From Acidimicrobiia bacterium (lineage in GTDB: Bacteria; Actinomycetota; Acidimicrobiia; Spongiisociales; JAHEDJ01), in NCBI GenBank assembly GCA_029210695.1, contig JARGFH010000001.1, positions 1 through 64,000 on the forward strand: a DNA stretch of 64,000 nt. The letters are read 5' to 3'. Below, piece by piece: positions 26,070-30,310 of this stretch. The translations under genes and the position numbers were made by a program. The number at the start of each line of letters is the position of its first letter. Within the stretch, counting starts at the first letter, position 1. Below the pieces are notes generated by a model. The model saw nothing but the letters and a program-made list of their open reading frames with translations, was not told where the DNA came from and searched no databases.

Positions 26070-26372
26070 TCAGCGCGGCGCCGCCAGCCTCCTGGTCGCC
26101 TCGGCGATCTCCTTGCGACGCTCTGCGCGACGAACAATCCTCATCATCACTCGCAACGTTGCGGTGAGCCCGAACAGCAATAACGCCAGCCCGATCGCCA
26201 GCTCAGGTCCGGACGCATAGCCGGTCGCACATCCGGACAAACCATCGCCACACAGACCGTATCCGGTACCGCCCGAGGCAAGGTCGAGCAGTACCAGGAG
26301 CGGCACAGCCGCAACGGCTACCACGGCCAGCAACAACGCGGCGATGACGAATCTCAACCAGAACACGCTCAT
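26070..26372 (-). CDS. Small two-span membrane protein, unknown function
   Basis: This 100-residue protein has two membrane segments (about 6-32 and 58-76), an outside loop with two Cys (YGLCGDGLSGCATGY) that could form a disulfide, and a basic C-terminal tail (RRAERRKEIAEATRR). I do not recognise a family. It converges with the EamA gene and diverges from the ThyX-like gene with 52 bp between starts. Confidence 0.6.
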   Translation of the reverse strand: MSVFWLRFVIAALLLAVVAVAAVPLLVLLDLASGGTGYGLCGDGLSGCATGYASGPELAIGLALLLFGLTATLRVMMRIVRRAERRKEIAEATRRLAAPR

Positions 26373-26424
26373 AGCAACGGCAGGCTACCCCGTCTTGGTT
26401 CCCTCTCCGGTACTATCGCGCTCC

Positions 26425-28044
26425 GTGAGCGCCTACTACGAAGAGCCATTCACCCCGGCGGAGGCCGCCATACTGGGTCGATTCTTCACCAACACCGACC
26501 GACCGGTCTTCGGCCTCATCAATCTTCCCGAGGTCGTCAAGGGCGCGTTGTTCGCCAGATACTCACGAACCCACAAGTCCGTCCGCAGGTTGTTCCTCGA
26601 CGAATTCGTCGCCAATGCCGACCTCGGCATCGAGGCCATTGCTGCCACGCTCCAGAACGAAGACTCCATCATCAAGTTCCGGCGGGCGGAGGAGCTCTAC
26701 GATCGAGTGTTCTTCGAATACGGCGACGACTCTGTAGCCCAGCTGGGCGGCGTGCACCTCGCCTGCGAACAAGCCTCCAACGTGCTCACGAAAGTGCTCG
26801 AGTGGGGCAGAATCGCCGCCTATCTCGAACAAAGCACCCGCTATATCGCCTACGACCGTCCGCTTGGAGAGCGCTACCGATATTTCATCCCCGACGAGAT
26901 CAAGGATGCCGGACTGGGAGACTCCTTCACGGAATACATGGAGCAGATCTTCACCTTCTATTCGAAGGCGGTTGAACGGCTCGTAGATCACTTCGCCGCC
27001 ATCTACCCGCAGCAGACCGCCGATAGCGACTTCGTCTGGCGCTCAACGATCCGTGCCAAGGCATACGACACGGTCCGCGGGATCCTGCCGGCTGCCACGC
27101 AGTCCAACGTTGGCATCTACGGCACGGGCCAGGCCTACGAAATGGCCCTCGTGAGAATGCAGGCCCATCCACTCACCGAGGTGCGCACATACGGGGCAAT
27201 GATGCTCGACGAGCTCCGCAAACAAATACCGGCCTTCATGAAACGGGTAGATCTTCCCGAGCGGGGTATTGCCTGGAGCAACTACCTCGCCGCCTCGGCC
27301 GGCGCAATGGCAGACATCGCCGGCTCACTCGACGAGCAGCCGGAGGAAACCGATGAAGTCACCCTCGTCGATTGGGATCAAGACGCAGAGCTCAAGATCG
27401 CCGCCGCCGCCCTCTACGCCTCCACCGGACTGCCGGATGCGCAGCTCCTGAGACACGTCGAGCGGCTCCCGATTGAGGAACGGGCGCGCATTCTCCGAGC
27501 CTATGTCGGCGATCGCAGCAACCGGCGGCACAAACCGGGTCGGGCCATGGAACGCGTCTCCTACCGATTCGACATCCTGTCCGACTACGGCGCCTTCCGA
27601 GATCTTCAGCGGCACCGGATGCTCACCATTGAGTGGCAGCGGTTGACCACCCGATTCGGCTACGACACGCCGGTGGAGGTCGCCGAGGCAGGACTACTCG
27701 ATGAGTGGGACGCGCTCATGCAGCGCGCTTCCGTTCTCTCCGAGCAGGTGCGCGCCGCCTCAAACGCGGACGTTGCTCAGTACGTAGTCCCGTTCGCCTT
27801 CCGCATCCGCTACATGATCGAGATGAACGCCAGGGAGGCGTTCCACCTCCTCGAGCTGCGCACGCAACCGGCGGGACATCCCAGCTACCGGCGCGTCTGT
27901 CAGGAGATGCATCGCCAGATCAGGGACGTTGCCGGACATGAGATCATCGCCGACGCCATGCAGTTCGTCGACTACTCGGACCCCGGCCTCGAACGCCTCA
28001 ACGAAGAACGCCGGCTAGAGGCAAAACGAGCAACCAGGGAGTAG
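26425..28044 (+). CDS. Double-length ThyX-like FAD-dependent thymidylate synthase family protein
   Basis: A 539-residue protein about twice the length of ThyX (roughly 220-270). Each half resembles ThyX but carries only part of the signature RHRxxSxNxxSxRY. The first half (residues 127-140) reads WGRIAAYLEQSTRY: it keeps the SxRY end and lacks RH. The second half (from 396) reads RHRMLTIEWQRLTTRF: it keeps RHR and lacks the rest. The first half also has RGILPAATQS and the second FHLLELRTQPAGHPSYR, both ThyX-like. Whether it makes dTMP is uncertain. I start at GTG 26425, where conservation begins; the frame is open back to 26344. Confidence 0.75.
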   Translation: MSAYYEEPFTPAEAAILGRFFTNTDRPVFGLINLPEVVKGALFARYSRTHKSVRRLFLDEFVANADLGIEAIAATLQNEDSIIKFRRAEELYDRVFFEYGDDSVAQLGGVHLACEQASNVLTKVLEWGRIAAYLEQSTRYIAYDRPLGERYRYFIPDEIKDAGLGDSFTEYMEQIFTFYSKAVERLVDHFAAIYPQQTADSDFVWRSTIRAKAYDTVRGILPAATQSNVGIYGTGQAYEMALVRMQAHPLTEVRTYGAMMLDELRKQIPAFMKRVDLPERGIAWSNYLAASAGAMADIAGSLDEQPEETDEVTLVDWDQDAELKIAAAALYASTGLPDAQLLRHVERLPIEERARILRAYVGDRSNRRHKPGRAMERVSYRFDILSDYGAFRDLQRHRMLTIEWQRLTTRFGYDTPVEVAEAGLLDEWDALMQRASVLSEQVRAASNADVAQYVVPFAFRIRYMIEMNAREAFHLLELRTQPAGHPSYRRVCQEMHRQIRDVAGHEIIADAMQFVDYSDPGLERLNEERRLEAKRATRE

Positions 28045-28433: not shown

Positions 28434-29288
28434 ATGGATTCGTTGCGGCTCGTCGTAGTCACCGGAAAGGGAGGGGTAGGCCGGTCGGCTGTGGCAGCAG
28501 CCATCGCACTGCGCGCGGTAAGGGCCGGACGCAGGACCCTGGCCATTTCCATGACCGAATCAGGCGGCCTGGGCGAGCACCTGGGCGTCGAGACCCTTGG
28601 ACCGAACGCCCACGAGATTCGCAGCGGCCTGTCGGCGCTGCAGGTCGAGCGCCCGGCCGCCCTCGATGAATACCTGCGCCTCCAGGTCGGCATCCCCAAA
28701 TTCGCCAGACTGGGTCCGCTGGCCAGCGCCTTCGATGCGCTCGCCTCAGCCGCCCCCGGCATCCGCGAGATTGTCACGATGGGCAAGGTGCTCTATGAGG
28801 TGCGTCGCGGGGACACCTGGGATCTCGTCGTGGCAGACGGCCCACCGATCGGCCAAATCGGTTCGCATCTGCGCGCCCCTCGCACGGTTTCGGATCTGGT
28901 GCCAACCGGCCGGATTCGCGACCAGGCGGCCTGGATGGCCGACATCCTCGCCGATCCGGCCCGATCTGCCCTGGTGCTGGTCACGCTTGCCGAAGAACTG
29001 CCGGCCCTGGAAACGGCCGAGGCGATGATCTGGCTTCAGAATTCGAAGCTGATCACCACGAAGTCGGTCATCACGAATCGTGTCCTGGAACCGATGGGAG
29101 TTCCTGTGTCGACCGGCCCCTCGCAGGGAGCCGTGCACGAAGCGGCGGTGCTCCACCACGGCCTGGTCGAGGAACAAACGAAGTGGCTCAAACAAACACC
29201 GGATGGACCCCGGTTGCCGTATTTGTTCGGAGTAACCGGGCCGGCCGAGGTGGCCGAGCGACTCGCCGATCTGTTGGGGTCGCTGTGA
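28434..29288 (+). CDS. ArsA/Get3-like ATPase, subunit A (altered P-loop)
   Basis: A 284-residue ArsA/Get3-family protein. The deviant P-loop reads GKGGVGRSA (residues 11-19): the signature Lys12 is kept, but the P-loop Lys is Arg17 and the following Thr is lost. The switch I Asp is also missing (ISMTESGGLG where DPA is expected). Switch II-like VVADGPPIGQIG is present. This subunit should therefore not hydrolyse ATP by itself. It is followed, with a GTGA overlap, by a second ArsA-like gene with the opposite lesion, so the two probably form a heterodimer. The pair resembles mycobacterial Rv3679-Rv3680. No arsenic gene is nearby. Confidence 0.85.
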   Translation: MDSLRLVVVTGKGGVGRSAVAAAIALRAVRAGRRTLAISMTESGGLGEHLGVETLGPNAHEIRSGLSALQVERPAALDEYLRLQVGIPKFARLGPLASAFDALASAAPGIREIVTMGKVLYEVRRGDTWDLVVADGPPIGQIGSHLRAPRTVSDLVPTGRIRDQAAWMADILADPARSALVLVTLAEELPALETAEAMIWLQNSKLITTKSVITNRVLEPMGVPVSTGPSQGAVHEAAVLHHGLVEEQTKWLKQTPDGPRLPYLFGVTGPAEVAERLADLLGSL

Positions 29289-30310
29289 CCAGGGCAATTC
29301 TCGTCACCGGAGCGGGCGGCGTCGGCAAGACCACGCTGTCGGCTGCCATCGCCGTCCGGGCCGCCCGGTCGGGAAGACGCACACTCGCCCTCACCGTAGA
29401 CCCGGCCCGGCGTCTGGCAGACGCGCTTGGTGTCGGAACGCTCGGAGCGGTTCCAACCGCCAATGCGGAACTCGACCTTCTCTGGGGGGCAATGCTCGAC
29501 GCCGAGCATTCGTGGGATGCGGTTGCACGACGCCATGCCGATCCGGAGGTAGCCGAACGGCTCGTATCCTCCGAGTTCTTCCGGGTGGCCGCCAGACATT
29601 TCCCGGCCAGCCAGTCGTATGCCGCCGCTGAACGGATGGCCGACCATCTGGAGAGCGGCGAGTGGGATGTGGTGGTCGTGGATACTCCACCGGCGGCCGG
29701 CGGCATCGAGTTTTTCACTGCGCCGGCGGAGACCCGCGATCTCGTCGGTGGACGCCTCATCCGCTGGATCACCGGTGGCCCGCTTCCGGGTCGACGCAGC
29801 TTGTTCCGAATCGCCGGACGTCCGGCCCTTCGGATGGCGAGCGCAGTGCTCGGCTCCGATCTACTCGAAAGAGTGGCCGAGTTCCTGTTTGATCTCCGCA
29901 CAACCCACGACAGTGTTTCCCGGCGAGCGGCCGCCATCGAGCGGCACTTCCGGCAGGCATCGACTCTCGTCGTGACGACCGCAGATCCGGCGCCCTTGCG
30001 AGAAGCGGAGCGATTCTTCCGTGAGCTCCCCAAGGTCGCCAGCCGCCCGGAACTGGTTGTGTTCAATCGATCGCTCCCAGACTCCTGGATGACGGGGCGG
30101 GCACCGGCAGACACGCCTCCGGTTCTGGCCGACAATCTGCGCAGATGGTCGTCTGAAGCAATACGACAAGCGGCGCATCGCGGAGAGTTCGCAGCCCACC
30201 ACAAGACGGCCCTGGCAACGGTCCCCTGGCAACCAGAGAGCCCGACCAGCCTTCACGCGCTGGACGAGTTGTTCATCAGGTCTGAGGGCCTGGAAGTCCT
30301 GGGGTTCTGA
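29285..30310 (+). CDS. ArsA/Get3-like ATPase, subunit B (catalytic P-loop, signature Lys absent)
   Basis: A 341-residue ArsA/Get3-family protein. The P-loop GAGGVGKTT (9-17) has the catalytic Lys15 but Ala10 in place of the signature Lys. Switch I keeps DPARRLADALGV and switch II is VVVDTPPAAGGIEFF. GTG 29285 overlaps the stop of subunit A as GTGA, which implies coupled translation and equal amounts. The partner keeps exactly the residue this one lacks. The cargo or target is unknown; Get3 relatives handle tail-anchored proteins, and the mycobacterial pair has been linked to glycerol metabolism. Confidence 0.87.
   Translation: MTRAILVTGAGGVGKTTLSAAIAVRAARSGRRTLALTVDPARRLADALGVGTLGAVPTANAELDLLWGAMLDAEHSWDAVARRHADPEVAERLVSSEFFRVAARHFPASQSYAAAERMADHLESGEWDVVVVDTPPAAGGIEFFTAPAETRDLVGGRLIRWITGGPLPGRRSLFRIAGRPALRMASAVLGSDLLERVAEFLFDLRTTHDSVSRRAAAIERHFRQASTLVVTTADPAPLREAERFFRELPKVASRPELVVFNRSLPDSWMTGRAPADTPPVLADNLRRWSSEAIRQAAHRGEFAAHHKTALATVPWQPESPTSLHALDELFIRSEGLEVLGF

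Follow-up and report, generated by a model that had tools for sequence, protein, structure and literature searches.

The usual picture of Get3 and ArsA gives each of these machines two equivalent or near-equivalent sites. The window analysed here, a stretch of 64,000 nucleotides from an acidimicrobial genome, carries an adjacent pair of ArsA-like genes whose products share the catalytic residues unevenly, raising the question of how many working ATPase sites the pair would form and whether the asymmetry is local or belongs to the whole family. The first-pass annotation had recorded, in subunit A, a signature lysine (K12), an arginine at the P-loop lysine position (R17) and no switch I aspartate, and, in subunit B, an alanine at the signature position (A10), a P-loop lysine (K15) and a DPARRL motif, with a GTGA overlap joining the genes. 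Re-reading the DNA confirmed all of these features (Table 1), the P-loops being GKGGVGRS in A and GAGGVGKT in B; the equal synthesis of A and B suggested from the overlap is plausible. An ORF lister opens gene B at an upstream GTG (29183), and we took 29285 instead because this start fits the position of the P-loop and the overlap found in relatives.

Table 1. Coordinates and residues of the A-B gene pair in the window.
Feature	Coordinates	Strand	Details
Gene A, BagA-like subunit	28434..29288	+	284 aa, stop included in coordinates; best profile match NF053622 (BagA), 120 bits; PDB 6bs3_A (Rv3679), E 2.5e-22
A Lys12 codon, signature (trans) lysine	28467..28469	+	Lys in 201/202 A rows
A Arg17 codon (CGG), P-loop Lys position	28482..28484	+	A rows: Lys 179, Arg 21, Ser 2
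A Thr41 codon, switch I Asp position	28554..28556	+	A rows mixed; B rows Asp 199/199
Gene B, BagB-like subunit, GTG start	29285..30310	+	341 aa; best profile match NF053621 (BagB), 175 bits; PDB 6bs3_B, E 1.9e-40
GTGA stop/start overlap of A and B	29285..29288	+	4-base overlap in 93/191 related pairs
B Ala10 codon, signature Lys position	29312..29314	+	Never Lys in 199 B rows
B Lys15 codon (AAG), P-loop lysine	29327..29329	+	Lys in 199/199 B rows
B Asp39 codon (GAC), switch I DPARRL	29399..29401	+	Asp 199/199, Arg43 198/199 B rows

The resemblance to the mycobacterial Rv3679-Rv3680 pair that had been proposed for these genes is well founded. The best profile and PDB match of each subunit is its counterpart in BagA/BagB of Mycobacterium tuberculosis (Mtb; Rv3679/Rv3680, PDB 6BS3-6BS5), and the two systems share the A-then-B gene order, a signature lysine in A only, and a P-loop lysine with DPA[KR]RL in B. 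Both proteins exceed the cut-off of the ArsA_ATPase Pfam domain (A 72.5 and B 95.1 bits, against 24.3), fall below that of the Get3 profile TIGR00345 (82.3 and 82.4 bits, against 135), and miss the NCBIfam equivalog cut-offs for BagA (120.1 against 400) and BagB (175.5 against 521), both of which are exceeded by a pair from the same phylum (L190). An AlphaFold2 model of A (pLDDT 91.6) matches Get3 and Mtb 6bs3_A (TMq 0.78 for the latter). Judged by these matches, the window's A and B are orthologous to mycobacterial BagA and BagB respectively, and are better classed as BagAB-type orthologues than as NCBIfam equivalogs. Gene order around the locus supports orthology and gives no clue to function: nth (endonuclease III) precedes bagAB by about 4 kb in the window's genome, and in another actinobacterial genome (L221) it lies a few kb upstream of bagAB, which is followed by whiB and a gene for a PASTA penicillin-binding protein, an arrangement known from Mycobacterium. 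The window's A differs from Mtb BagA at the two positions of interest, Mtb BagA having GKGGTGKS, with the P-loop lysine, and Glu at switch I where the window has Arg and Thr.

Within the genus, purifying selection acts on A (dN/dS about 0.08-0.14) as well as on B (0.05-0.10), so that A is not a decaying pseudogene. Together with the fact that both residues follow phylum-wide patterns, this argues that the distribution of residues between A and B is not due to chance. We followed these patterns first in 59 relatives and then in wider sets drawn from the class (296 genomes) and the phylum (397 genomes), which yielded the pair from about 200 loci; after removal of strays, the final set held 202 A rows (182 distinct) and 199 B rows (178 distinct).

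Subunit B proved uniform. Its signature position is never lysine (0/199; Ala 80, Ser 78, Gly 21, Pro 19, Thr 1), while the P-loop lysine, the threonine that follows it and the DPA of switch I are each present in all 199 rows. Arg43 of the switch I motif is found in all rows except one; this residue, which in the window lies within DPARRL (29399-29413) and is not present in canonical Get3, could be a finger pointing toward the A site. Subunit A keeps the signature lysine in all except one row, the switch II aspartate in 202/202, and Ser/Thr18, Asp135 and Asn215 almost invariably. Its P-loop lysine position is occupied by Lys in 179 rows, Arg in 21 and Ser in 2, and its switch I position is variable (Asp 67, Glu 37, Thr 33, Gly 30, the rest mixed). 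Loss of the P-loop lysine is thus seen in A only, never in B. In terms of residues, essentially no pair is missing any part of a composite site made of the B P-loop, B switch I and the A signature lysine, whereas the trans-lysine of the reciprocal site is absent from every pair. The composite site proposed for this pair thus applies more widely than first claimed.

A few loci depart from the common pattern. The single A whose signature lysine is replaced (L067, G259) has Gln instead (SAQGGVGKS) and, if read right, its composite site would be broken. The two Ser rows are second bagAB copies from other orders of the class (L207, G091; L208, G059), with GKGGVGSS in A. At L163 (G349), two tandem A genes precede a single B. 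No CXXC zinc motif occurs in 197 A or 199 B proteins, and the window's A and B contain no cysteine at all, which excludes the standard zinc-bridged dimer of Get3.

The claim that fared less well is that A and B carry complementary P-loop lesions arising as a pair. On trees built from A plus B with the trait columns omitted, the P-loop Lys/Arg state of A changed at least six times, all within the window's order, to which the Arg is confined (21/21 Arg rows). Mtb BagA and most relatives keep the lysine, and with outgroups bearing Lys the simplest reading is a change from Lys to Arg. The switch I aspartate of A is present in most members of the other orders of the class, is replaced by Glu, Ala or Ser or kept elsewhere in the phylum, and in the window's order mostly gives way to Thr, Gly, Val, Ala or Leu. 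Two carriers of the P-loop Arg (L117, L068) have Asp at switch I, so the two changes in A are not strictly coupled. A compensatory link between Arg17 and Thr/Asp41 was considered and rejected: the raw association (14/14 against 13/59) comes down to 4 independent supported pairs and is not significant. The alignments therefore do not show the two lesions always occurring together, as the first-pass annotation had supposed they might. Independent variation, which it had held would refute the idea, is thus found by half, since the lesions are nested: an old loss in B that all pairs share, and within it late and partial changes in A.

The heterodimer as such is already known and crystallised: shared crystal entries contain Rv3679 as chain A and Rv3680 as chain B, 6BS3 being entitled 'ADP-bound bacterial Get3-like A and B in Mycobacterium tuberculosis'. 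Of the 202 A genes surveyed, 198 have B as the next gene downstream. Among the other four, three sit at contig ends and one (L201) is a real exception, with no B near A; the commonest spacing is the 4-base overlap seen in the window. In three genera of another family than the window's (L173, L214, L215), A and B are fused in one reading frame with a linker. A further fused-looking frame of 769 aa (L160) was left out of this count, its middle resembling an out-of-frame stretch. We modelled one natural single-chain fusion as a proxy for the window's heterodimer, using an alignment (A4) that excluded B-only rows, since a mixed alignment (A2) drew A rows onto the B half. The AlphaFold2 model (pTM 0.82 over 729 residues) aligns as a whole chain to ArsA, best to the closed form 9nbo (TMt 0.70), and its halves match 6bs3_A (TMt 0.83) and 6bs3_B (TMt 0.85). 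From the shared crystal entries and the natural fusions we infer, by homology, a physical heterodimer in the window's organism, as the first-pass annotation had predicted.

The roles of these residues have been described for Get3: the signature lysine crosses the dimer and stabilises the transition state, the Walker A lysine acts within its own chain, where it binds the beta-phosphate, and switch I contributes the aspartate that aligns the water (PMC10248533). Transferred to the pair, these roles imply that the B site should hydrolyse with the help of A Lys12 and that the A site should not. The reading that we prefer, and to which we assign a probability of roughly 0.7, is that A and B are obligate partners in a Get3/ArsA-like heterodimer, of the BagA/BagB type, that has a single catalytic site. 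This site would consist of the B P-loop (Lys15/Thr16), B switch I Asp39, B switch II Asp133 and, in trans, A Lys12. The opposite site, in the P-loop of A, would have been without a trans-lysine from the family's common ancestor onwards and so would hydrolyse poorly or not at all; with Ser18, Asp135 and Asn215 in place it may still bind a nucleotide, in a structural or regulatory role. Freed of catalytic constraint, the A site would then have lost its switch I aspartate in most of the window's order and exchanged its P-loop lysine for arginine in several lineages, the window's included. The trans geometry, single-site hydrolysis and the occupancy of the A site are all things that we infer from residues. 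A broader statement, which we regard as evenly balanced, is that BagAB proteins are natural single-site Get3-type ATPases throughout the phylum, with the trans-lysine lost once in B and an idle A site that erodes stepwise in parallel lineages (switch I aspartate, then P-loop lysine) while remaining folded and possibly nucleotide-bound. Counting against a single site, most A proteins outside the window's order keep the P-loop lysine, and many have Asp or Glu at switch I.

How idle the A site would be depends partly on what an arginine does at the P-loop position. In Get3d of Nostoc, Arg replaces the Walker A lysine and Glu occupies the switch I position, yet the protein hydrolyses ATP with a kcat of 0.28 per min and a KM of 353 uM; its plant relative, which has the Lys, shows a KM of 351 uM (PMC10248533). 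Arg17 alone is thus no proof of a dead site, and the missing trans-lysine is the stronger argument for an idle one. Calling the A site dead, as had been done for this pair, was too strong in view of Nostoc Get3d, which is active with the same Arg, and of the Ser18, Asp135 and Asn215 that A keeps. Both sites might even hydrolyse, the A site using Arg17 in place of Lys and a B finger such as Arg43 of DPARRL replacing the missing trans-lysine: Arg43 is nearly universal in B and absent from canonical Get3 (STDPAHSL), SIMIBI proteins are able to use an Arg finger (PMC9599734), and the switch II aspartate of A is invariant. We nevertheless find two active sites unlikely, given that the water-aligning switch I aspartate of A is mostly gone in the window's order and that loss of the P-loop lysine has recurred in A but is never seen in B, while the Nostoc precedent is a homodimer that keeps its trans-lysine.

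A milder alternative concerns the role of Arg17 only and is otherwise compatible with a single catalytic site. Arg17 may be a maintained variant that keeps a nucleotide in the A site, making A a regulatory nucleotide sensor. Every substitution seen inside the order gives Arg, in 21/21 rows and through the repeated changes on the tree described above, the surrounding P-loop stays along with Ser18, Asp135 and Asn215, and dN/dS is low. We hold this possibility tentatively, at somewhat less than even odds, because the P-loop glycines could be kept merely because Lys12 sits among them and must be positioned for the B site, because Ser appears instead in the second copies of other orders, and because the link of Arg17 to residue 41 has so few independent pairs behind it. 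A much less probable arrangement has A and B acting as separate homodimers, or B pairing with the canonical Get3 of the genome. Such a protein exists, a third and complete Get3-like gene encoded at contig position 94415-95320 with a C-terminal HSP20-like domain, the motifs GKGGVGKT and STDPAHSL and a TIGR00345 score of 256 bits, above the cut-off, and L201 does have an A without a nearby B. However, a B homodimer would have no signature lysine, a homodimer of the window's A neither P-loop lysine nor switch I aspartate, and the two genes sit side by side almost without exception, form fusions in three genera and encode proteins that crystallise together in Mtb, so that we consider separate partners very improbable. 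In one family of the window's order (f6, 8 genomes) there is no match to A, not even the weak one that a canonical Get3 gives elsewhere, and by this measure bagAB and Get3 both seem absent.

Comparison with known systems helps to place the proposed single-site heterodimer. With Get3/TRC40 the pair shares the ArsA_ATPase fold and a deviant Walker A with a trans-acting lysine; Get3 is a homodimer, whereas here there are two distinct subunits, of which B has Ala10 for the signature lysine, and the CXXC zinc motif is missing. ArsA is a single-chain pseudo-dimer, its two ArsA domains likewise being unequal and working together as a dimer, and the A-B fusions align to it over both halves, although the window has two separate genes, the B half is without the signature lysine, and no sequence evidence links BagAB to arsenite. 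Nostoc Get3d resembles the window's A in having Arg for the Walker A lysine and a residue other than Asp at switch I (Glu in Get3d; PMC10248533), and differs in being a homodimer with the signature lysine on both chains and measurable activity. The signal recognition particle and its receptor (SRP/SR; Ffh/FtsY) form a SIMIBI pseudo-homodimer in which a single site hydrolyses (PMC9599734); as GTPases of a different family that use Arg fingers, they offer an analogy of working only.

What appears to be new here is the quantified one-sidedness of the pair across the phylum, the repeated Lys to Arg change in A in the window's order and the A-B fusions. If a heterodimer with one working site is indeed kept phylum-wide, a single hydrolysis per cycle would be enough for Get3-type cargo work, and the stepwise losses in A would provide a series of natural intermediates for testing this and for exploring what Get3-like machines gain from a second hydrolysing site. 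For the tuberculosis pair, the same reasoning predicts that the BagB site is catalytic and is served by the signature lysine of BagA.

Loss of bagAB in mycobacteria reportedly alters survival in the presence of glycerol and nitric oxide, citrate and streptomycin (PMC10597346; PMC12216072; title of Whitaker 2020), which points to a link with glycerol and nitric oxide stress. Conserved neighbours were considered as a further clue to function and set aside: of the 20 larger regions fetched (L221-L240), 12 have a whiB gene close to bagAB, mostly outside the window's order, and among these 20 regions none from the window's order has whiB beside bagAB. Where it occurs, the proximity of whiB makes a redox-linked role possible. 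Upstream of bagAB in the window, a 566-aa ThyX-like protein (26344-28044, + strand) has two stretches matching Pfam Thy1, its C-terminal half with RHR and its N-terminal half with EQSTRY and without RHR. This neighbour likewise looks like a two-domain enzyme with uneven motifs, and it stays beside bagAB in the order.
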